A stretch of DNA of 64,000 nt from an uncultured Mycoplasmatota bacterium (GTDB lineage: Bacteria > Bacillota_I > Bacilli_A > RF39 > UBA660): contig CAMYVW010000001.1 in the NCBI GenBank assembly GCA_947302655.1, positions 276,263-340,262 of the forward strand. The letters are read 5' to 3'. A program made the position numbers and the translations under genes. How positions within the stretch are numbered: the stretch's first letter is position 1; the number at the start of each line of letters is the position of its first letter. This document shows, piece by piece, positions 25,337 through 34,690 of the stretch. A model generated the notes under the pieces. It saw nothing but the letters and a program-made list of their open reading frames with translations. It was not told the DNA's origin and did no database searches.

Positions 25337-25373
25337 AGAAAAAATAATAAAACTAATTAATAGTTTTATTATT
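25337..25373 (-). terminator. Terminator overlapping the stop of the GerM-domain gene
   Basis: On the minus strand AATAATAAAACTA/TAGTTTTATTATT followed by T6; the TAG stop is in the stem. Confidence 0.8.
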
Positions 25374-26264
25374 TATTCTTACTGTGTCAACATTATACGT
25401 ATCTTTAACAGAGTATGTTATTCCATACATAACTTCTTCATCAATTTCATTAAATCCATTAAATATTAAATTATTAAATTCAAGATTAATTTCATTTTCT
25501 AAAATTTCATAATTTTTAAGTTCAGTTCCTGCAATAATATATGTTGATAAATTATCATCAATATAATCTTTACCAGATAGTTCATTAATAATAACTTCTA
25601 TTTTTTCTTTTTCACTATTAACTGTAAAAGTAATAGGAATATAATAATTTGTATCATTATAGCTATTAATAAAGTAAGCTGTAACACTTTTTGTATCTTT
25701 AAAACTATTAATCATAGATTTATGATTAATACCTATATCTCTTGTTAATACTTCAGGTAATACTTTGTTTATATTTGGTATTCTTATTAATGGCTCGCCA
25801 TTAATAAGAATTTTAACTCTATTAATACCATCTATTTCAGTTAAAGTATATACAATAGATTCGATAATTTTTTCTTCATGTCCTTCATTATTTTTAAATA
25901 AATTATCATTAAAATCTATTGTAATAAGATCATTTTCTATTTTTAAGCCATTTAGAGTTGTGCTATTTGATATATAAGATGTAAAACCCAGAGGTAAGTA
26001 TTTGTTCTTATTAGAACCATTAATTAAAGCTTCAATTAATTCTTTAGCAATATTTTCTTTACTTTCTTTATTGATATTAATATATGTTCTTGAAACATAA
26101 TTATTTTTATCAATTAAATATATAGCTGAAGTTTTTGCTTTTTTATATATTGTTTTAGTAGGTACTTTAATTTCATTTTTAGGAAAGATATATATACTTA
26201 CTAAAACAATTATAAGTGCAAAAGATGCCACAATAATTCTTCTAAATGATCCTTTTTTTAACAT
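25353..26264 (-). CDS. GerM-domain sporulation/germination protein
   Basis: 303 residues: an N-terminal membrane helix (about 8-27), then two repeats of the GerMN fold. The first contains YLIDKNNYVSRTYININKES...EALINGSNKNKYLPLGF...LIRIPNINKVLPE; the second contains TAYFINSYNDTNYYIPITFTV...INELSGKDYIDDNLSTY. B. subtilis GerM has the same two-domain plan and is needed for normal sporulation (with SpoIIQ localisation) and germination. It lies next to gerE on the same strand; in Bacillus gerE and gerM are also close. The start ATG at 26264 follows AGGTGAAAAC. It should act in the intermembrane space of the forespore. Confidence 0.82.
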   Translation of the reverse strand: MLKKGSFRRIIVASFALIIVLVSIYIFPKNEIKVPTKTIYKKAKTSAIYLIDKNNYVSRTYININKESKENIAKELIEALINGSNKNKYLPLGFTSYISNSTTLNGLKIENDLITIDFNDNLFKNNEGHEEKIIESIVYTLTEIDGINRVKILINGEPLIRIPNINKVLPEVLTRDIGINHKSMINSFKDTKSVTAYFINSYNDTNYYIPITFTVNSEKEKIEVIINELSGKDYIDDNLSTYIIAGTELKNYEILENEINLEFNNLIFNGFNEIDEEVMYGITYSVKDTYNVDTVRINNKTIN

Positions 26265-26297
26265 GTTTTCACCTATAAAAATAATATGAAATATATA

Positions 26298-26332
26298 AAA
26301 AAATATAACTATTTTATTTATAGTTATATTTT
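26298..26332 (-). terminator. Terminator overlapping the gerE stop
   Basis: On the minus strand AAATATAACTAT/ATAGTTATATTT with T tail, the 5' arm including the stop codon. Confidence 0.75.
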
Positions 26333-26530
26333 TACTTCACCAATTTTAATAAGTTCAACTAAAGCTTGACTTCTTCCTTTAGAACCTAGTTTTTGTATTG
26401 TATTAGAAATATGATTTCTAACAGTTTTTTCACTAATACCTAATTCTTTTGATATTTCTTTAGTGTTTTTATTTTTAACTAAAAGATTAAAGATTTCTTG
26501 TTCTCTTTTAGTTAGTATATGATTTTTCAT
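26324..26530 (-). CDS. gerE: Sporulation transcription factor GerE
   Basis: 68 residues, a lone LuxR-type helix-turn-helix domain: LTKREQEIFNLLVKNKNTKEISKELGISEKTVRNHIS, then KLGSKGRSQALVELIKIGE. It is close to B. subtilis GerE along its whole length, including the KTVRNHIS recognition helix and GRSQA. GerE tunes late mother-cell genes (coat and crust) together with sigma-K. A sigma-K-like promoter lies 38 bases upstream. GerE is typical of Bacilli and largely absent from Clostridia, which supports placing the genome in Bacilli. Confidence 0.93.
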   Translation of the reverse strand: MKNHILTKREQEIFNLLVKNKNTKEISKELGISEKTVRNHISNTIQKLGSKGRSQALVELIKIGEVKI

Positions 26531-26567
26531 ACCTAGTTTCCTTTCATTTTATATATCCACTTACTTT

Positions 26568-26597
26568 TATAATATGAAAGAAAAAAAGGGTTGTGTA
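26568..26597 (-). promoter_or_regulatory. Candidate sigma-K promoter of gerE
   Basis: On the minus strand CATATTATA (26576-26568) fits the sigma-K -10 CATANNNTA. An ACA at 26596-26594 lies 17 bases upstream, near the -35 AC element. In Bacillus gerE is transcribed by sigma-K, whose gene is intact at 41883-42578. Confidence 0.45.
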
Positions 26598-26602
26598 GGT
26601 TA

Positions 26603-27094
26603 CTAACCTTCAAACTTAACTGTAATATATTTATTTTCTTTAAATTTTTCTTGTACACTTTTTATAATTTTATTAGCGATCTCATTATTATGAACATCAC
26701 TTGATATGGTTATACTAATTTGATTATCTCTTATTTTAATAAAACTATCATAATCAAATTCTTTCTTTATTAACCTTGATAATTCTTCTTCTTTCGTTTT
26801 ATAACTTGAAATCACCTCAAGTTCATCATAAGCATTATTCTTTTCTTCTAAAGTTGCCTCATCATCAAGAAGTATATTTTGTAGTTCATCAATTTTTCCC
26901 ATGGTAGATTCATCATCAGCAACTTTTAAAACGCTTATATTATTATCATCTGAAGAACTATTAGCTACATATGAGGAGCTGGATTGATATTTACCCATAG
27001 TTAAACTAGTTTGATCAGTTGAAAAATAGTAGATTCCTAAAACAATAATAAGTGAAAAAAGTGTAATAAACCATAAGCTTTGTTTATTTATCAT
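26603..27094 (-). CDS. spoIIIAH: Stage III sporulation protein AH (SpoIIIAH)
   Basis: 163 residues: MINKQSLWFITLFSLIIVLGIYY (N-terminal membrane helix as in B. subtilis SpoIIIAH), a variable Ser/Asp-rich linker, then the YscJ/FliF-like domain (DDEATLEEKNNAYDELEVIS...ELSRLIKKEFDYDSFIKIRDNQISITI). SpoIIIAH in the mother-cell membrane binds forespore SpoIIQ to form the channel between the two cells. The ATG at 27094 follows AAAGGAGG; an upstream ATG is ignored. The gene is not accompanied here by spoIIIAA-AG, so the operon has been split or the others lie elsewhere. Confidence 0.88.
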   Translation of the reverse strand: MINKQSLWFITLFSLIIVLGIYYFSTDQTSLTMGKYQSSSSYVANSSSDDNNISVLKVADDESTMGKIDELQNILLDDEATLEEKNNAYDELEVISSYKTKEEELSRLIKKEFDYDSFIKIRDNQISITISSDVHNNEIANKIIKSVQEKFKENKYITVKFEG

Positions 27095-27220
27095 ATAATC
27101 CTCCTTTATCATGATAATATATATGATTAATTGCGATAAATATGATTTATTTAAATAGACTTATTGTTTTATTAAGTATATTTTGATATATTTTATATAT
27201 GTATAAGGAAGGCTAAAAAA

Positions 27221-28390
27221 ATGAAAAACAAACTTATTATAACTTTATTTATTGTTATTTTATATTCAGTATTTTTCTTCGTGCCTATAAAAGAATTGTT
27301 AATAAGAAGAGGCACTATAAATTATTATAGATCTGATAACTGGGAACTAGTTAGTAAATCTAACGATAAAATCTATGATAAAATCATGACTTTAGAAGCA
27401 TTTATTAAAAATAGATACAATAATTATTTTCCTTTTTATAATAAAATAAATAATTTATATTATAGCTCTATAATTAATGTAGATAAATTATATTTAAACG
27501 ATATATATCTAAAAGATAATGCAGATAATGAAAGAATTTTTTATAGTGATGAAAATAATTTTTATTATGTTCTAAATAAATACTCTAAAAAAGAATTAGA
27601 GGACAGATTAGATAAAGAAGCATCATTTTATAATGAAATAAATGATAAATATCCAAGTGTTAATTTAGCTTTATATATTCCACTTAGATATGAATCATTT
27701 AAGTTTAATAATATAAATTCGAATTATGATTTAGTTAATGAGTTTATAAAAAAATTAAATTCAAATATTAAATATGACTTCTATAGTGTTAATAATTTAG
27801 AAGAATATAGTAAGTATTACTATAAAACAGATCACCACTATAATTCAAACGGAGCCGAAATAGCATATAAAGATATTTTAAATATGTTTAATATTGATAA
27901 CAAATTAGAAATATCTCATAAAGATGTTTATGAACCATATTATGGTTCTATGGCAAAAAGTACTTTACTTAAAAAAGTAAGTGATAAATTAACAGCTATA
28001 GATATTTCTAATAGTTTAGAAGTTAATATAGATGATGTTAATTTTAAACCACTTGAAAAGAAAGATAGAAAAGATCCTTTTTATGATTATTATGTTGGTT
28101 ATTTTAATGGTATGTATGATGAAATCATTTATAAAAATAATTCATCATTTAATAGAAATCTATTAATTATAGGTGATTCTTATTCATGGCAGGTAGATTA
28201 CTTACTTGCAACAAACTTTGATAAAACTTTTGTTATAAATACTAAATATGGTAAGTGGATAGATAATGATTTAGTATTAAAAGATTATATTAAAGAAAAT
28301 AATATAACTCATATATTATTCTTTAGAGAAGCAAAAAACCTAATATTTGATGCTGATAATTTAAAAGTAGATAAGAAGGTGATTAGGTAA
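27221..28390 (+). CDS. DHHW-family/AlgX-like SGNH hydrolase-fold protein
   Basis: 389 residues: an N-terminal signal anchor (about 5-25), then an exported domain with YKTDHHYNSNGAEIAY (the DHH(W) motif near residue 208) and NLLIIGDSYSWQVDYLL (SGNH block I Ser) near residue 310. These are the AlgJ/AlgX-type features of proteins that pass acyl groups to extracellular polymers together with an MBOAT. The next gene, overlapping by one base, is that MBOAT. The target polymer (peptidoglycan, teichoic acid or polysaccharide) is unknown. No dlt genes are adjacent. Confidence 0.82.
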   Translation: MKNKLIITLFIVILYSVFFFVPIKELLIRRGTINYYRSDNWELVSKSNDKIYDKIMTLEAFIKNRYNNYFPFYNKINNLYYSSIINVDKLYLNDIYLKDNADNERIFYSDENNFYYVLNKYSKKELEDRLDKEASFYNEINDKYPSVNLALYIPLRYESFKFNNINSNYDLVNEFIKKLNSNIKYDFYSVNNLEEYSKYYYKTDHHYNSNGAEIAYKDILNMFNIDNKLEISHKDVYEPYYGSMAKSTLLKKVSDKLTAIDISNSLEVNIDDVNFKPLEKKDRKDPFYDYYVGYFNGMYDEIIYKNNSSFNRNLLIIGDSYSWQVDYLLATNFDKTFVINTKYGKWIDNDLVLKDYIKENNITHILFFREAKNLIFDADNLKVDKKVIR

Positions 28391-29742
28391 TGGTATTCTC
28401 ATCAGTTATATTCTTATTTGCATTTTTACCACTATTCTTATTTTGTTATTTTGTACCTAAAAATATCAAAGTAAAGAATGTAGTACTTTTATTATTTTCT
28501 CTAGCATTTTATGCTTGGGGAGAACCATATTATTTTTTCTTAATGCTTTTTATGATAATTGTTAATTACAAATTAACAATTAAGATGGAAGAAAAGGAAA
28601 GTAAGAAAATATTTATTTTTTTGGTAATATTTAATTTGCTTTCTTTATTTTCATTTAAATATTTAAACTTTTGTATATCTAATTTAAATAATGTATTTAA
28701 TTTAAGTATTAAAAGCTTAAATTTATCTTTACCTATAGGTATTTCATTTTATACATTTCAAGTATTATCATATGTTATTGATGTCTATAATAAAAAGGTA
28801 AAAGCACAAAAAAGTTTTATTAATCTTGCTTGTTATGTAAGTGCTTTTCCTCAGCTTATAGCAGGACCTATAGTAAGATACACTGATATTGAAAAGGAAA
28901 TTACTAATAGAAAAACTACATCAGATGACTTTGCTGACGGAATTAGAAGATTTATTACTGGTTTATCAAAGAAAGTATTAATTGCTAACAATGTATCATA
29001 TGTATGTGATTCTATCTTTGCTCTAGGTGCACCAACTGTTGGTTTTATTGGTATACTAATAGCAATAGTATCATATACAATGCAAATCTATTTTGATTTT
29101 TCAGGATATTCTGATATGGCAATAGGCCTTGGAAGAATGTGTGGTTTCCATTATAATGAAAACTTTAATCATCCATATATTTCTAAATCAGTTACAGAGT
29201 TTTGGAGAAGATGGCACATATCACTATCGTCATTTTTTAAAGACTATGTTTATATTCCCCTTGGAGGAAATAGGAAAGGTACATTTAAACACATTAGAAA
29301 TATTTTAATTGTATGGGCTTTAACTGGACTATGGCATGGTGATTCATGGAACTTTATTTTATGGGGATTATATTATGGAGTTATTTTAATAATAGAGAAG
29401 TATTTATTTAAAAAAAGAAAAATATCATCACATATCTATACAATGGTTATTGTTATGATTGGCTGGCTTATTTTTAGACAAACAAATATGAGTGACTTAA
29501 TTACTTCATTTAAAGGTTTATTTGGCTGTTATGGTTTAGGAAGTATAAGAAGTTTATATTATCTAGGGATATTTTCATCAAGATATATTATTGCTTTTAT
29601 CTTTGCTATTATCTTATCAACAAATTTAATAAAATTTAAAGATAGTATTAGTAAGGATGTACTTTTAATTATATTATTTATAATTTCAATAATATTTGTT
29701 GTTGTAAGTAGTTATAATCCCTTTATTTATTTTAGATTTTAA
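28390..29742 (+). CDS. MBOAT-family membrane O-acyltransferase (AlgI/PatA/DltB-like)
   Basis: 450 residues with about 10-11 membrane helices. Conserved MBOAT features: FPQLIAGPIVRYTDIE, MQIYFDFSGYSDMAIGLGRMCGF, NFNHPYISKSVTEFWRRWHISLS, FKDYVYIPLGGNRKG and ALTGLWHGDSWNFILWG with the invariant His. It transfers acetyl or similar groups across the membrane to the partner encoded upstream. The start overlaps the previous stop (TAATG), showing tight coupling. A terminator follows, separating it from the bacteriocin-like cassette. Length and motifs look intact. Confidence 0.92.
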   Translation: MVFSSVIFLFAFLPLFLFCYFVPKNIKVKNVVLLLFSLAFYAWGEPYYFFLMLFMIIVNYKLTIKMEEKESKKIFIFLVIFNLLSLFSFKYLNFCISNLNNVFNLSIKSLNLSLPIGISFYTFQVLSYVIDVYNKKVKAQKSFINLACYVSAFPQLIAGPIVRYTDIEKEITNRKTTSDDFADGIRRFITGLSKKVLIANNVSYVCDSIFALGAPTVGFIGILIAIVSYTMQIYFDFSGYSDMAIGLGRMCGFHYNENFNHPYISKSVTEFWRRWHISLSSFFKDYVYIPLGGNRKGTFKHIRNILIVWALTGLWHGDSWNFILWGLYYGVILIIEKYLFKKRKISSHIYTMVIVMIGWLIFRQTNMSDLITSFKGLFGCYGLGSIRSLYYLGIFSSRYIIAFIFAIILSTNLIKFKDSISKDVLLIILFIISIIFVVVSSYNPFIYFRF

Positions 29743-29766
29743 AAGGAAGCTTTGCTTCCTTTTTTA
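29741..29766 (+). terminator. Terminator after the MBOAT gene
   Basis: AAAAGGAAGC-TTT-GCTTCCTTTT with T tail. Confidence 0.88.
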
Positions 29767-29844
29767 ATTTTCTAAAAAAATTTGAAAATAAAAAAGGAAA
29801 TGAAGAATTTTTCGGAAAAGTATATTAGTGAAGGGAGAATAATA

Positions 29845-31893
29845 ATGCATAAGAAAGTTTTCGTAGTAAAACAGCATGACATCACTGACTGTGCACCAGC
29901 ATGTTTATTGTCAATTATTAGCTTTTATGGTGGATACGTTCCTATTGAGATTATTAGACTTAAATGTGAAACTAATCATAACGGAACCTCTGCTTACAAT
30001 TTAATTGAAGCCGCAAGAGAACTTAATTTTAAAGCTGAAGCTTTAAGGTGTAAGAGTTATCAGGATTTAATTGAAAAGAATAGTTATCCATGTATAGTTC
30101 ATCTAAAACTAAAAAACAATCTTAATCACTTCGCAGTCTTATACTTTATATGTGATAAATATGCAATTTTAATGGATCCTGCAGTTGGTAAGGTTAAGAT
30201 GAGCATTAATGAGTTTAAAGATATATTTACTAATGTCACTATATTATTACAACCTCAATCAACCTTAATCAAATTTGAAAAACCAAATACAATTAAACAA
30301 GTAATATCCTCATTTTATCTTACCAATAAAAAAATAACTCTAAAATTACTATTATTAAGTTTTTTCTTAGTATTAGTTTCCTTATCAATTAGTTATTTTA
30401 TTAAATGTGGTTCTCTTGCATTATCAGGGGATTATGGTTTGCCTATATTATTCTATATCATGTTTATTTTTTTTATTGCATACATATTAAAAAATGTAAT
30501 CGACTATAAAAAGAATGAATTAATAATATATGCCAATAAAAACATCAGCGCTGATTTATACGAAAAGTTTTCCCATCAATTATTTATTCTTCCTTTAAAT
30601 TTTATTAAATCGAAAACTAGTGGTGAAATAATTAGCCGTTTTAGTGAGCTTTCACAAATAAACAAAATGATTCCTGAAATTATTGTAACTATAAGTTTAG
30701 ATTTAATAATGGCATTATGGGCACTTATATTTTCTTGCTTTATTTCGACATATTTATCATTATTAAGTGTTGTTTTAATGCTTATATATTTTATTATATC
30801 TTTTGCATTTAAAAATCCGACATTGCAAAAAATTAATAAAAATATCACATTATCAAGTGAATTTAATACATGCATTATTGATAATGTAAATTCAATTATT
30901 AGCACTAAATATACTAATAATGAAGAAAATATGGAAAAAAGATTAGAAAGAAGTGGAACCAGTTATCTACTTAATAATATGAACCTTGAGACATTTTTTA
31001 ACAAATTAAATGCTTTAAAAAACGTTTTATATGATCTTGGAAGATGGTTAATATTATCAATTGGTTTATATTTATGTTTTAAAAGAAAATTAAATGTAAT
31101 TGATCTATTTACTTTTGAAATAATTATTAACTATTTCTTTGAATCAATTAAAGATATGGTAGGTATGCTGCCAAGCATCTGCTACTTTAAAACATCGTTA
31201 TTTAAATTAAATGAGTTTTCAATAATAAAAGAGGAGAATAATGAAGCATTTAATTTTAAAAATGGTGATATTAAAGTAGAAAATTTATCATTTTCTTATG
31301 ACAATAATAATTTTATATTAAAAGATATTAATATTTTTATTAAGGAAAATGAAAAGATCTTACTTCAAGGTTGTTCAGGTTCTGGTAAAAGTACTTTCTG
31401 TCAGATTTTAAGTAAACAACTAAACTATAAAGAGGGAAGTGTAACCATAGGAGGCGTAGATATTAATGATATTAAATCTAATGATTTTCGAAAAAATATT
31501 ACCTATATAGGTCAGAAAGATTCATTAATTGTTGATACTATTTTAAAAAATATAATTTATGAAAGGAATATTAATGATAAAAATCTTGAAGATATATGTA
31601 AAATTTGTGAGATTGATAAAATAATAAAAAACAAGATTAATCGTTATAATGAGATTGTTAATGAATCTTCGATAAATATATCAGGTGGTGAAAAACAAAG
31701 AATAATTTTGGCAAGAGGACTTATTAATCCTGGCCAAATCATAATACTTGATGAGGCGTTAAGTGAAGTTAATAAAGATATGGAAGAAAGAATAATAAAT
31801 AAAGTATTTAAATATTTTAAAGATAGAACAATAATCTATGTTTCACACAAAGACTATAAAAATATTTTTAAGAAAAGGATATTAATTAGTTAA
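29845..31893 (+). CDS. Peptidase-containing ABC exporter (C39 protease, bacteriocin type)
   Basis: 682 residues. The N-terminal C39 peptidase domain begins VVKQHDITDCAPACLLSII, with catalytic C16, H95 (NLNHFAV) and D111 (MDPAVGK). Next is a six-helix membrane domain (about 155-430), then an NBD: Walker A GCSGSGKSTF, signature ISGGEKQR, Walker B IIILDEAL, and H-loop VSHK. Such PCAT exporters cut double-glycine leaders and export the peptide. Two genes with double-glycine leaders lie downstream in the same cassette. An in-frame TTG at 29782 exists, but the ATG at 29845 is preceded by GAAGGGAGAA and places the Cys motif correctly. All catalytic residues are intact. Confidence 0.94.
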   Translation: MHKKVFVVKQHDITDCAPACLLSIISFYGGYVPIEIIRLKCETNHNGTSAYNLIEAARELNFKAEALRCKSYQDLIEKNSYPCIVHLKLKNNLNHFAVLYFICDKYAILMDPAVGKVKMSINEFKDIFTNVTILLQPQSTLIKFEKPNTIKQVISSFYLTNKKITLKLLLLSFFLVLVSLSISYFIKCGSLALSGDYGLPILFYIMFIFFIAYILKNVIDYKKNELIIYANKNISADLYEKFSHQLFILPLNFIKSKTSGEIISRFSELSQINKMIPEIIVTISLDLIMALWALIFSCFISTYLSLLSVVLMLIYFIISFAFKNPTLQKINKNITLSSEFNTCIIDNVNSIISTKYTNNEENMEKRLERSGTSYLLNNMNLETFFNKLNALKNVLYDLGRWLILSIGLYLCFKRKLNVIDLFTFEIIINYFFESIKDMVGMLPSICYFKTSLFKLNEFSIIKEENNEAFNFKNGDIKVENLSFSYDNNNFILKDINIFIKENEKILLQGCSGSGKSTFCQILSKQLNYKEGSVTIGGVDINDIKSNDFRKNITYIGQKDSLIVDTILKNIIYERNINDKNLEDICKICEIDKIIKNKINRYNEIVNESSINISGGEKQRIILARGLINPGQIIILDEALSEVNKDMEERIINKVFKYFKDRTIIYVSHKDYKNIFKKRILIS

Positions 31894-31894
31894 A

Positions 31895-32275
31895 GTGATT
31901 GAAAACTATTTTGAATTAAAGTTTTATAAACATAAAAATAATAAATATTTATTTTATATTCTGACTTTATTAATAACTTTCTTAGTTTTTCTATCTCGAA
32001 TAAAAATCAACAAATATGTTAATTTCAAACTACTTAAAATAAATAACATTTACTATATTAAGTGTGAAAATCATTGTAGTACTATCATGAATAGAAATAC
32101 TATACAATTTGATAATCACAATTTAAAATACAAGTTTAAAAGTAAGATGGATAATCTATATGAAATTAATATATTAGATAAAAATGAAATTAATAATAAC
32201 GCTGATATTAAAATCCCATTAAAAAAACAAAGTGTACATAATGCACTATTTAATATTTTTAAGAGAAAGGAGTAA
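31895..32275 (+). CDS. Small one-TM accessory protein of the peptide export cassette
   Basis: 126 residues from GTG, one base after the exporter stop. It has a short cytoplasmic N-terminus, one membrane helix (about 18-36, YLFYILTLLITFLVFLS), then a compact Lys/Asn-rich exported domain with a CENHC motif and ending LFNIFKRKE. Topology resembles the N-terminal end of bacteriocin accessory (HlyD/MesE-type) proteins, but the coiled coil and barrel are missing. It could be a minimal adaptor or the immunity protein. It overlaps the first peptide gene by one base (TAATG). I know no matching family. Confidence 0.7.
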   Translation: MIENYFELKFYKHKNNKYLFYILTLLITFLVFLSRIKINKYVNFKLLKINNIYYIKCENHCSTIMNRNTIQFDNHNLKYKFKSKMDNLYEINILDKNEINNNADIKIPLKKQSVHNALFNIFKRKE

Positions 32276-32427
32276 TGAAATTGGAAATATTAAAACAAGA
32301 AGAATTAAAAAATGTTATGGGAGGAGGTATCACTTTTAAGTTTATTATGGGACTAATAACTGCAGGGACATTCATTGTTGGGTTAGTTGATGGTTTCCTA
32401 AGACCTTTAAAGTGTAGAAACTACTAG
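32275..32427 (+). CDS. Double-glycine-leader peptide 1 (putative bacteriocin)
   Basis: 50 residues, missed by length-limited gene finders. The leader MKLEILKQEELKNVMGG is typical: hydrophobic positions before a GG pair and the ELKNV element. The C39 exporter should cut after residue 17. The 33-residue core is GITFKFIMGLITAGTFIVGL plus VDGFLRPLKCRNY. It is membrane-active in character, with Gly spaced along a helix (including a GLVDG GxxxG motif), and ends in a Cys-containing basic tail. The ribosome binding site AGAAAGGAG is strong, and the start overlaps the accessory gene stop. Two-peptide bacteriocin component is the best reading; a signalling peptide is possible. Confidence 0.85.
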   Translation: MKLEILKQEELKNVMGGGITFKFIMGLITAGTFIVGLVDGFLRPLKCRNY

Positions 32428-32428
32428 T

Positions 32429-32584
32429 ATGAAACAAAATGAATTAAAAAACATCTATGGTGGATCATTTAATTTTACAACAACATTCTTTAATTCAATA
32501 TCAAGATATATAACTACAGTTAAAAGTGTAGCTGAATCTATTGGTAGCTCAATTAGAAGAATATTTAGTAAAAGATATTGCTAG
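32429..32584 (+). CDS. Double-glycine-leader peptide 2 (putative partner peptide)
   Basis: 51 residues, starting two bases after peptide 1. The leader is short, MKQNELKNIYGG, and shares ELKN..GG with peptide 1. The 39-residue core begins SFNFTTTFF and ends SIRRIFSKRYC. It is amphipathic and cationic, with Ser/Thr/Ile on one face and four Arg/Lys in the last ten residues, and has a single Cys as the last residue. The pairing of a hydrophobic Gly-rich peptide and a cationic amphipathic peptide is typical of class IIb bacteriocins. There is no separate ribosome binding site apart from sequence in the end of peptide 1, so translation may be coupled. Confidence 0.82.
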   Translation: MKQNELKNIYGGSFNFTTTFFNSISRYITTVKSVAESIGSSIRRIFSKRYC

Positions 32585-32588
32585 ATAG

Positions 32589-32622
32589 TAAAAGTTGATA
32601 CAAATATGTATCAACTTTTTTA
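32589..32622 (+). terminator. Terminator closing the peptide export cassette
   Basis: AAAGTTGATAC-AAATAT-GTATCAACTTT followed by T. Confidence 0.9.
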
Positions 32623-32781
32623 AGTTAGACAAATATATTTTCGTATATGTATAACTTCATTTTCCGCAACTGCTAATCAGGGAACTCTAAGGCAAAATAG
32701 TTGTTATTAAGTTGGATCTGTTTGTACATGTTCATTTCATATAAGCAACGTAAACTCAACAAATTTTGCTGCATGATCTGA

Positions 32782-32967
32782 AAAACAAACTTTAAAATAA
32801 CTGATCAATATAAACCTGCATATTCAGTATATTTTCCTTATAGTTATGTTGGAAACGGAGTTTCAAATAGCCACTATGAGTACCTTACAATAAATGGTAA
32901 AGTTATACTTCAAAACTCTAACGGTGATATTACAGATATATTAATGAATGTAACGTGGTTCATTTAA
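32782..32967 (+). pseudogene. Degenerate C-terminal fragment of a phage tail/baseplate-type protein
   Basis: In the 489-base gap between the peptide cassette and rpsU, one frame is open from just after a TGA (32779) to TAA at 32965. It reads NFKITDQYKPAYSVYFPYSY, then VGNGVSNSHYEYLTINGKVI, and ends NVTWFI. The YKPAY.VYFP...YEYL.I..G.V.L...G.IT.I.MNVTW pattern is the usual C-terminal domain of siphophage minor tail proteins. It has no start codon or ribosome binding site, and the upstream 180 bases carry stops in all frames. So this is a relic, seen only as its last 61 codons. The rest of the gap shows only the rpsU promoter. Confidence 0.6.
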
Positions 32968-33012
32968 AAATACAGTAGAGTTATTTTTCCCCTTTAATCC
33001 TTTAAAAACTAC

Positions 33013-33041
33013 TTGTATAATCATAACTTATTTGCTATAAT
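33013..33041 (+). promoter_or_regulatory. Promoter of rpsU
   Basis: TTGTAT (33013-33018), 17-base spacer, TATAAT (33036-33041). Confidence 0.75.
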
Positions 33042-33073
33042 AACCAGTAGTTGAAGTCGAAGGGAGGGAAATC

Positions 33074-33268
33074 ATGACTAAGGTCGTTGTTCAAAATGGT
33101 AACATTGATGGAGCTTTAAAGAAATTTAAGGCAAAAGTTGCAAGAAGCGGTGTCCCTTCAGAACTTAAAAAAAGAAAACATTATGAAAAACCAGGGGTTA
33201 AAAGAAGAGAAGCTAAAAAAGAAATGATTAGAAACTCTCGTAAAGCTAGCCGTAATAAAGGATTTTAA
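33074..33268 (+). CDS. rpsU: 30S ribosomal protein S21
   Basis: 64 residues, strongly basic: KVVVQNGNIDGALKKFKAKV...SGVPSELKKRKHYEKPGVKRREAKK, the S21 signature (NE.ID.ALRRFKR, KRK.YEKPS..RK). It binds the 30S platform near the anti-Shine-Dalgarno. It has a good GAAGGGAGGG ribosome binding site. It precedes yqfC/yqfD as in many Bacilli, but yqeY, usually between, is missing. A terminator follows. Confidence 0.96.
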   Translation: MTKVVVQNGNIDGALKKFKAKVARSGVPSELKKRKHYEKPGVKRREAKKEMIRNSRKASRNKGF

Positions 33269-33269
33269 T

Positions 33270-33297
33270 AAACACTTTTAAAAAGTGTTTTTTTATT
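33270..33297 (+). terminator. Terminator after rpsU
   Basis: AAACACTTTT/AAAAGTGTTT stem with T tail. Confidence 0.88.
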
Positions 33298-33336
33298 TTC
33301 TTAAATATTCCTGCATATAATTTATAAGGTGAAATT

Positions 33337-33582
33337 ATGAAAGCAATTGATAGATTAAAATATGGGTTTCGCAGTAAAGAATATTTTATATCTATATATC
33401 CTGATCATATCTATGTAATAAATTATAAAGATATCATTGATTTTACAGCTAATAATATCATACTTGAATTTAATGATTTTAAACTTAAAATTAAGGGATT
33501 AGATTTTAAAATAATTAGAAAAAACAATTGTGAAATTGATATTTTAGGTTTTTTTAATTCAATGGAGATAATTAATGGGTAA
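33337..33582 (+). CDS. yqfC: Sporulation protein YqfC
   Basis: 81 residues of the YabP/YqfC family: YFISIYPDHIYVINYKDIIDFTANNIILEFNDFKLKIKGLDFKI, the G..I.I..Y..I..Y..I...... pattern of short beta strands. It is a sigma-E-dependent mother-cell protein in Bacillus needed for efficient sporulation; mechanism unknown. It overlaps yqfD by eight bases, which confirms the identification. The ribosome binding site AAGGTGAAATT precedes ATG at 33337. Confidence 0.85.
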   Translation: MKAIDRLKYGFRSKEYFISIYPDHIYVINYKDIIDFTANNIILEFNDFKLKIKGLDFKIIRKNNCEIDILGFFNSMEIING

Positions 33583-34690
33583 TATATTAATAAAATGTCA
33601 TAAAAAAAATGAGTCATATATTTTAAAGAAAATTATTAAAAATGATATTAATATTATCAATTCTAAGTATACTAAAGAATATATCTATTATTTGATTTCA
33701 GAAAATGATTATGAAAAATTGCTAAAAATTGATTATAAAAAAATAATTGATATTGAAAAACATATTGGGATTAAAGAAATAAAAAATGCTTTTGTAAGAA
33801 ATATGGAAAAAATACTAATATCGTTAGGGATTGTTATTTTAGTTTTTTTATCTAAACTATATATTTTTAAAGTAAATGTTTACGTTAATGATTTAAATTT
33901 AAAAAAAATCATCACTTACACATTAATGGATGAAGGTATTAAGGATAATTCTTTAGTTAAATCGTTTAATGATATTAATAAAATAAAAAATAGAATTTTA
34001 AAAAAATATAATGATGAAATAGAATGGCTTGAAATATCTAAAAATGGATATGAATATGATGTAAGAATAATAAAAAGAGAGAAAAGCGTAAAGAAAAATG
34101 AAAGTGAAAAATGTAATTATGTAGCTTCAAAATCTGGAACTATTAAAACTATTATGGCAAGAAAAGGAGTTTTGCTTGTTCAGGAGAATAACTTTGTTAA
34201 TAAGGGAGATATTTTAATAAGTGGTGATATTGTTTACAATGAAGAATTGAAAACAACGGTATGTGCACAAGGATTAATAACAGGTGAAGTTTGGTATAAA
34301 GTAAATGTCTCATACCCACTAAAAAAAATTAAATATTATAAAAAAAAGACAAGCTTTTATAACATGAATTTTAATTTTCTAAATAGAAAGTACAAATTAT
34401 TTAAGGATAGGTATGATAATAGTAGAAAAATAATATCAATTGGTAGTAATAATATAGGCTTAGTTATAACTAATTCATTTAAAAAATATAAAAAAGTTAT
34501 TAATTATAGTGAAGAAGAAGCATTAAAAAAATCTATTGATTTAGCTAAGAAGAAAGTATTATTAAAAGCAAATAAAAATTCTCATATTTTAAGTGAAAAT
34601 ATTTTGAAGAAAGATATAAAAAATGGTAAAATAAATGTGGAAGTTCTAATTACAGTAGAAGAAGAACTTGGGGTTGTAGAAAACTACTAG
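33575..34690 (+). CDS. yqfD: Sporulation protein YqfD
   Basis: 371 residues. N-terminal domain of about 85 residues, a single membrane helix (about 86-106, ILISLGIVILVFLSKLYIF), then an exported region with WLEISKNGYEYDVRIIKRE, a barrel-like segment (ASKSGTIKTIMARKGVLLVQENNFVNKGDILISG, similar to the YqfD/SpoIV signature with G.I......G......G..V..G..LI.G), and a C-terminal AKKKVLLKANKN. YqfD is a stage IV sporulation protein of the mother cell. It follows yqfC with an eight-base overlap. In Bacillus phoH and yqfF come next; here a VanZ-like gene does. Confidence 0.88.
   Translation: MGNILIKCHKKNESYILKKIIKNDINIINSKYTKEYIYYLISENDYEKLLKIDYKKIIDIEKHIGIKEIKNAFVRNMEKILISLGIVILVFLSKLYIFKVNVYVNDLNLKKIITYTLMDEGIKDNSLVKSFNDINKIKNRILKKYNDEIEWLEISKNGYEYDVRIIKREKSVKKNESEKCNYVASKSGTIKTIMARKGVLLVQENNFVNKGDILISGDIVYNEELKTTVCAQGLITGEVWYKVNVSYPLKKIKYYKKKTSFYNMNFNFLNRKYKLFKDRYDNSRKIISIGSNNIGLVITNSFKKYKKVINYSEEEALKKSIDLAKKKVLLKANKNSHILSENILKKDIKNGKINVEVLITVEEELGVVENY

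Follow-up and report, generated by a model that had tools for sequence, protein, structure and literature searches.

The window analysed here is a stretch of 64,000 nucleotides from contig CAMYVW010000001.1 of an uncultured Mycoplasmatota bacterium in the RF39/UBA660 family. It contains a compact cassette of four genes for a C39 peptidase-containing ABC exporter, a small accessory membrane protein, and two double-glycine precursor peptides, pep1 and pep2. The cassette is best interpreted as a class IIb-like two-peptide bacteriocin system that belongs to a SigH/competence regulon and is akin to pneumococcal CibAB, with a probability of roughly 0.53. It is likely to serve in killing neighbouring cells and taking up their DNA, because its two peptides would together make a two-part membrane toxin and its promoter is common with that of a DNA-uptake gene in several species. 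The gene set, its conservation, the exporter residues, the GxxxG motifs, the cysteines, and the promoter shared with comEA are read directly from the sequences. The RF39/UBA660 family is reported to consist of gut Bacilli that have reduced genomes and are not in culture (PMC13155120). No description of this system was found in the titles and abstract openings listed from the open-licence PMC literature.

The peptide pair

The core of window pep1 contains GLVDG and one C-terminal cysteine (LKCRNY). The core of pep2 contains AESIG, an AxxxG sequence where most relatives carry GxxxG, together with a C-terminal cysteine. Class IIb bacteriocins are described as typically having a GxxxG or GxxxG-like motif in both of their peptides (PMC8538875), and both window peptides have one. 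The two double-glycine precursor genes are adjacent in the order pep1-pep2, and joint export of their products is predicted; the lengths and GG positions that an earlier note on this DNA had assigned to them (Table 1) were confirmed. Across the family, the C-terminal consensus of pep1 is 'FxxGxIDGYxRPxKCN' and the consensus of pep2 is 'ISGTxxNAIxRxIxxIxDLGRSxGSAIRRIxxGxxC'. The cores mostly comprise 30-32 residues for pep1 and 37-41 residues for pep2, with mean charges of +1.2 and +3.1, respectively. Strict GxxxG motifs are present in 136 of 139 pep1 cores (shuffle mean 63) and in 135 of 139 pep2 cores (shuffle mean 35). Natural pep1-pep2 fusions, of 90 residues in G004 and 101 residues in P0077, retain both GG sites and suggest that the two peptides are partners.

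The class IIb model TIGR03949 matches 22 of 30 pep1 members at E<=0.01, with a best value of 4.6e-10, and only 5 of 30 pep2 members. Window pep1 scores 20.0 bits, under the cut-off of 21.5, a miss that bars the window's pep1 alone since other family members match more strongly. The window peptides have no Pfam or NCBIfam match above cut-off, and a PDB sequence search gave five chance-level matches for pep2 and one for pep1, all at E >=0.13 and none of them a bacteriocin.

Exactly one cysteine is present in 130 of 146 pep1 and 129 of 144 pep2 cores, and in 135 of 139 pairs both precursors have a cysteine in their last 16 residues. Neither partner has a C-terminal cysteine in L048. Both partners have lost the conserved position in L045 and in the second pair of L030, two loci of a single genus; the automated pairing scored these two as pep1 with cysteine owing to a displaced cysteine. 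The paired cysteines would be explained most simply by a disulfide between pep1 and pep2, for which the evidence comes from few lineages.

Some loci differ in their peptide content. L030 has two tandem pep1-pep2 pairs, with the conserved cysteines present in one and absent from the other; L022 has an additional peptide 5' of the pair; and in L138 a degenerate pep2 lacking cysteine precedes a cysteine-bearing pep2.

Exporter and accessory protein

The exporter contains C39, ABC-membrane, and ABC-ATPase domains (PF03412, PF00664, and PF00005), all above the Pfam cut-offs, and these three domains and its catalytic residues identify it as a C39 peptidase-containing ABC exporter. Wherever the alignment column concerned is filled (143 to 152 of 152 family exporters, depending on the column), the Cys, Gln, His, and Asp residues, the Walker A and B motifs, the signature, and the H-loop are present without exception. 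The intact catalytic residues and nucleotide-binding-domain motifs described earlier for the window exporter thus hold throughout the aligned family. Its score against TIGR01193 is 331.1 bits, below the curated cut-off of 523.85, and the cassette is not filed in TIGR03949 or TIGR01193 because the window proteins miss both cut-offs.

The accessory protein has one transmembrane helix and no Pfam or NCBIfam match above cut-off. A structure model, built on the relative P0054 and not on the window's own protein, resembles membrane-fusion-protein beta-barrels, and the accessory may be a membrane protein with a barrel of this kind. A full-length membrane fusion protein needs hairpin and lipoyl parts, for which 126 residues are too short. 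No frame of at least 70 residues lies between the exporter and the peptides in 46 of 147 loci, two genus-mates among them, so the accessory seems dispensable. The alignment of the accessory (A5) covers 14 of 101 accessory proteins.

Conservation across the family

The exporter, searched at a threshold of 1e-60, is found in 164 of 193 sampled family genomes with one copy apiece, in 129 of 148 genera, and in four of the five genomes of the genus, the window's own counted. The loci examined number 152 and consist of 150 of the 164 family positives plus those of G002 and G004. Among them, pep1 is present in 144, pep2 in 142, and at least one peptide in 147. Conservation of the peptide frames in exporter-bearing relatives, on which the earlier note had made its reading depend, is therefore observed. 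Four of the five loci without either peptide reach a contig end at most 2 nucleotides past the exporter; the fifth, L085, has 481 nucleotides. Wherever both peptides are present (139 loci, namely 138 with paired genes and L070), pep1 precedes pep2. The set of 139 pairs omits eight loci without pep1 (L011, which is fused, L057, L066, L068, L077, L085, L150, and L161) and ten without pep2 (L057, L061, L064, L066, L085, L098, L128, L150, L161, and L166), the latter mostly at contig ends. It also leaves out L070, in which the two genes are 710 nucleotides apart, and the fused G004 precursor. The peptide profiles are iterative (E<0.001, GG required) and were built from the same loci that they score, and the peptide alignments A3 and A4 each hold 30 of 40 sampled sequences (135 and 130 eligible).

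A class-wide search with the pep2 profile is positive in 51 of 54 family genomes. The 341 other genomes of the class give only partial matches, in 20 genomes and over at most 41 of the 55 profile positions; 19 of these 20 cover the N-terminal part of the profile, and that of G278 covers positions 14-45. A link to mycoplasmas was considered and rejected. Of the 20 non-family loci, 11 (L219-L229) were inspected over stretches of 7.7-18 kb; at phmmer E<1e-10 these stretches contain nothing related to the exporter, and the matches are treated as unrelated double-glycine peptides. Plasmid-borne relatives were likewise set aside, being all below 30% identity among the matches listed. In the databases, 842 pep2 relatives are found at E<=0.001. 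Five pep2-bearing genomes (G008, G009, G040, G042, and G154) have an exporter below the 1e-60 threshold, and a more distant exporter adjoins the pair; in G456, which lies outside the exporter sample, a more distant exporter also stands alongside the pep2 pair. Three family genomes, G070, G084, and G103, lack pep2 as well as an exporter at the 1e-60 threshold.

The non-family loci contain peptides of other kinds. L219-L223 come from a different family of the class, whose genomes are small and by size mycoplasma-like; they encode proteins of 110-130 residues with double-glycine leaders, and the stretches covered contain no relative of the exporter. L224-L226, from other families of the class, encode a double-glycine peptide that is conserved, about 60 residues long, and has the hydrophobic core AVICYRLFMSS.

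Within the genus, identity between the window and L009 is 0.88 for pep1, 0.82 for pep2, and 0.68 for the exporter, and the corresponding values for L010 are 0.55, 0.72, and 0.51. The family means are 0.44 for the pep1 core, 0.40 for the pep2 core, and 0.39 for the exporter. The pN/pS ratio against the nearest relative is 0.13 for pep1 and 0.30 for pep2, within a peptide range of 0.13-0.38, with silent sites close to saturation. The recurrence of the peptide frames 3' of the exporter throughout the family and their low pN/pS indicate that they are more than chance frames. Among 100 loci with 2.3 kb of 3' sequence, 51 have rpsU and/or yqeY there, as recognised by eye, and the distances between exporters correlate with those between comEA genes (Mantel r 0.39, 0/5000, n=27). 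From this frequent common location and the distance correlation, the cassette looks ancestral and largely vertical in descent. Bacteriocins are usually patchy, strain-level weapons, and the spread of one two-peptide type through a family of small-genome uncultured Bacilli is unlike that pattern.

Promoter and regulation

A promoter element with a SigH-like -35 sequence lies upstream of the exporter (Table 1). The 28 nucleotides at 29810-29837 recur unchanged in the genus-mates G001 and G002, which have exporter identities of 50 and 67%. The full element with AGGAAAT has exactly three perfect sites in its own genome and none for the reversed control pattern. These sites precede the cassette, comEA (adjoined by a gene with a ComEC domain), and a RhuM/Fic gene. 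No sigma-70-like site is listed within 29743-29845. In G139, from another genus, the local version of the promoter has eight sites and none in the control; one precedes the cassette, one precedes comEA, after which a frame judged by eye to be ComEC-like comes next, and one is at a contig end. The exporter upstream region resembles that of the same genome's comEA (mean 19.6) more than it does between genomes (mean 11.1), with 0/20,000 permutations reaching this value. The comparison draws on 30 of the 177 comEA loci and covers the 27 of these genomes for which an exporter upstream is available. The genome's own comEA is the best match in 9 of the 27 and one of the two best in 13. The promoter sequence is thus common to the cassette and comEA in the window's genome and in several others, which, together with the spread through the family, suggests that such genome-reduced bacteria still invest in predatory gene acquisition.

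The spacing of the SigH consensus is 11-12. The halves of the consensus in Bacillus are given as RNAGGAWWW and RNNGAAT (PMC8510167). All 13 positions are matched in 7 of 151 exporter upstreams (shuffle mean 0.35) and at least 12 in 34 of 151 (shuffle mean 5.7). Two exporter upstreams read TACGAATA, which is reported as the streptococcal SigX box (PMC6328492). A sigma-like gene lies, by eye, between rlmB and secE-nusG, the position expected of sigH. DNA-uptake genes are widespread in the family, with comEA in 177 of 193 genomes and a ComEC domain in 86 of 98. The sigma factor of the shared promoter may accordingly be a SigH that governs competence.

The RhuM/Fic gene with the third site is at L218:1859-2803 (G000:C1, about 394.9 kb) and is followed by a frame that by eye is SpoIVB-like. 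The sites in G139 (L268-L273) also precede three PD-(D/E)XK transposase-type nucleases, of which one was scanned, a thioester-domain surface protein, and an orphan double-glycine peptide of 36 residues with two cysteines in its core.

A third gene and immunity

A third gene is found directly 3' of pep2 in 61 of the 136 loci with at least 220 nucleotides available. It encodes 42-70 residues without a leader, in which a pep2-like GRxxGTxxR motif comes after a hydrophobic segment, and 35 of the 61 products have a cysteine in the last 8 residues. In 51 of 61 loci its first start codon overlaps the end of pep2 by 7, 13, or 16 nucleotides. The original pep2 profile had absorbed three third-gene sequences (L078, L091, and L111), which inflated their scores, and the comparison was repeated without them. 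The profile free of third-gene sequences gives at least 5 bits for 53 of 61 third genes and at least 10 bits for 28 of 61; the corresponding counts are 0.35 and 0 of 61 for shuffles and 5 and 4 of 86 for other hydrophobic small frames. GxxxG occurs in all 61 (shuffle mean 6.9), a count that is partly built in, as the genes were collected by profile. Along the exporter tree, the accessory and the third gene do not come and go together (15 and 23 changes; median p 0.45 by independent pairs).

Clusters of class IIb bacteriocins include a dedicated immunity protein associated with the membrane, a role that the third gene may fill. Its membrane-anchored, pep2-like helix may protect the producer by capturing pep1. 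The immunity protein CbnZ of another two-peptide bacteriocin is likewise reported to be small, with 42 residues and one transmembrane helix (PMC8538875).

Proposed mechanism and alternative explanations

As predicted from these features, the exporter would trim both precursors after their GG sites and secrete them as one two-peptide bacteriocin. A SigH-type sigma factor would likely switch on the cassette together with DNA uptake. The two mature helices would associate with each other by way of their GxxxG faces and enter the membranes of nearby unprotected cells, which would release DNA, and the co-expressed ComEA/ComEC machinery would import it in a competence-linked predation like that of CibAB. 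With less support, the C-terminal cysteines may link pep1 to pep2, and, where the third gene exists, its helix may confer the protection described above. A bolder version is doubtful: an ancestral, vertically inherited SigH programme of killing and import throughout the family, with a disulfide heterodimer as toxin and, in many members, a membrane-anchored subunit mimic as immunity. Immunity of this mimic type has not been seen by us in descriptions of two-peptide bacteriocins. The system raises the questions of whether two-peptide toxins can be covalent heterodimers, whether immunity can arise by subunit mimicry, and whether SigH is the competence sigma factor of the lineage.

Several results weigh against the bacteriocin reading or its parts. 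Bacteriocins generally diverge fast; unusually, the cores here roughly equal the exporter in conservation at the family level and exceed it within the genus. In 14 of the 27 genomes compared, the genome's own comEA ranks third or lower as a promoter match, and there is little resemblance. The window site matches the SigH consensus at 11 of 13 positions, a level seen in 89 observed versus 46 shuffled cases. On TIGR02859, the sigma candidate reaches 93 bits where the cut-off is 295, and the Pfam matches to its sigma regions likewise fall short (20.7 versus 24 and 19.4 versus 25.7). Of the 16 genomes that lack a comEA match, 11 still have the exporter, versus 153 of the 177 with a match (Fisher p 0.07), so the cassette and the uptake genes are not strictly tied. 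Against the disulfide, a displaced cysteine is kept in pep1 of L045 and of the second L030 pair, and the fused G004 precursor lacks the cysteine-bearing end of pep1 while the cysteine of pep2 is kept. No third gene or other immunity gene is recognised in the window or the genus.

Other functions were also weighed. If the product were a pheromone, the exporter and accessory would act like ComAB, and the mature peptide or peptides would call kin into a competent/SigH state. The ComAB/ComC layout is likewise a C39 exporter with a small accessory and a double-glycine peptide, and the promoter common with comEA and the conservation of the cores within the genus agree with such a role. However, two cores of different length and charge, GxxxG in both, and the fusions point to a helix pair. 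A ComC-type pheromone gene would be expected beside a sensor kinase and a response regulator. No histidine kinase was seen by eye, without a kinase-domain scan, among the 25 largest conserved neighbour groups, and core motifs shared family-wide would be odd in a specificity signal. A pheromone is thus considered unlikely. The earlier note had left the choice between an antimicrobial and a kin signal open; the antimicrobial part stands better in view of the GxxxG motifs, the class IIb match of pep1, and the lack of a kinase visible in those neighbour groups. That note did not mention the promoter common with comEA, the conservation throughout the family, the paired cysteines, or the membrane-anchored pep2-like product of relatives.

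Less likely still is a sporulation-linked cannibalism, in which the cassette would be turned on by SigH at stationary phase or sporulation entry, lysed siblings would feed the producer, and DNA uptake would be incidental. The SigH-type promoter, the sporulation genes on both sides of the cassette in the window (SpoIIIAH, Germane, GerE-type HTH, and YqfD), the position of the RhuM/Fic gene just 5' of the SpoIVB-like frame, and the retention of the cassette in comEA-less genomes would fit this explanation. It is countered by the two genomes examined genome-wide, both of which have the site at the cassette and at comEA, and by the grouping of SpoIIIAH- and GerE-like neighbours in only 33 and 31 loci. 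The pair may also be no toxin, and instead a secreted structural or host-directed pair with a core function that the family needs, as its wide distribution and apparently vertical inheritance (the Mantel correlation and the recurrent rpsU or yqeY downstream) would allow. This explanation has only a slim chance, given the class IIb profile match, the GxxxG motifs, and the three genomes that have neither exporter nor pep2. The class IIb-like bacteriocin under competence control remains the preferred interpretation.

Organisation and surroundings of the locus

The coordinates of the cassette are given in Table 1. Neighbouring genes are separated or overlapped by one base, and the four-gene packing reported earlier was reproduced from the sequence, coordinates included. 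The exporter frame begins with ATG, and the open frame extends upstream to a TTG at 29782. The hairpin after pep2 is the probable end of the cassette transcript; the terminator claimed earlier probably corresponds to it, yet it is not listed by a consensus terminator scan. Rfam gives no match at gathering score within 29000-34000. The placing of the exporter first and the peptides last, and the small accessory, had both been called unusual; in the family loci, this order and the accessory are normal.

Table 1. Cassette features and their positions in the window
Feature	Position	Strand	Details
Promoter element AGGAAAT-N8-TTTCGGAAAAGTATATTA plus GTGAAGGGAG	29795..29837	+	SigH-like -35; 3 perfect genome sites
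C39 peptidase / ABC exporter, 682 aa	29845..31893	+	C39 domain about 29863-30261; Pfam domains, relatives
Accessory membrane protein, 126 aa, GTG start	31895..32275	+	One transmembrane helix; beta-barrel in relative's model
pep1 precursor, 50 aa	32275..32427	+	GG at 16-17; leader 17 aa, core 33 aa
pep2 precursor, 51 aa	32429..32584	+	GG at 11-12; leader 12 aa, core 39 aa
13-pair AT-rich hairpin + T-tract	32590..32619	+	Fold minimum free energy -13.8 kcal/mol

The genome of the cassette comprises 1.04 Mb in 9 contigs, is 94% complete, and has a single C39 match. The sporulation-type genes named above flank the cassette at 25353-27112 (-) and 33575-34690 (+), and the suggestion that the host is a spore former fits them. 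Two genes at 27221-29742, between the SpoIIIAH-like gene and the cassette, are similar to the gene pair of alginate O-acetylation. This pair looks inserted or lost, since the SpoIIIAH-like gene directly precedes the exporter in G001 and G004. About 450 nucleotides from the hairpin to rpsU (32620-33070) are without a clear gene and may contain gene remnants.

Comparison with known systems

C39 bacteriocin exporters (TIGR01193): The window exporter is like these in domain order and in catalytic and ATPase residues. In comparison with the membrane-fusion accessories that accompany them, the accessory may have a similar beta-barrel, going by the model of a relative, but has only 126 residues.

Mbov_0121 / MAG1140 of mycoplasmas: The exporter and accessory weakly match the consecutively numbered NCBIfam models NF045998 and NF045999, at 277.2 bits (cut-off 500) and 13.1 bits (cut-off 35), respectively. 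Both cut-offs are missed, and the likeness consists of these sub-cut-off profile scores.

Lactobin A / cerein 7B (TIGR03949): pep1 is like these peptides by profile, whereas pep2 seldom matches, and the cassette pair differs by its paired C-terminal cysteines.

CibABC of Streptococcus pneumoniae: This system is described as a two-peptide bacteriocin with the immunity protein CibC, whose genes respond to the competence sigma factor alongside the late competence genes (PMC5295010). The proposed likeness, drawn at the level of the system, lies in a peptide pair that is probably tied to competence here too and, in the 61 relatives with a third gene, in a small membrane gene after the pair. In contrast to CibABC, the exporter is in the same cassette, conserved cysteines are near both core ends, the pair is family-wide, and the window has no recognised immunity gene.

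CabAB of Streptococcus mitis: This competence-associated pair is reported to lyse neighbours and to raise gene transfer (PMC13059744). That demonstrated function is the one proposed here for the cassette. The Cab variants are reported to be diverse, each at less than 10% frequency (PMC13059744), whereas the cassette pair is one conserved type present in many genera.

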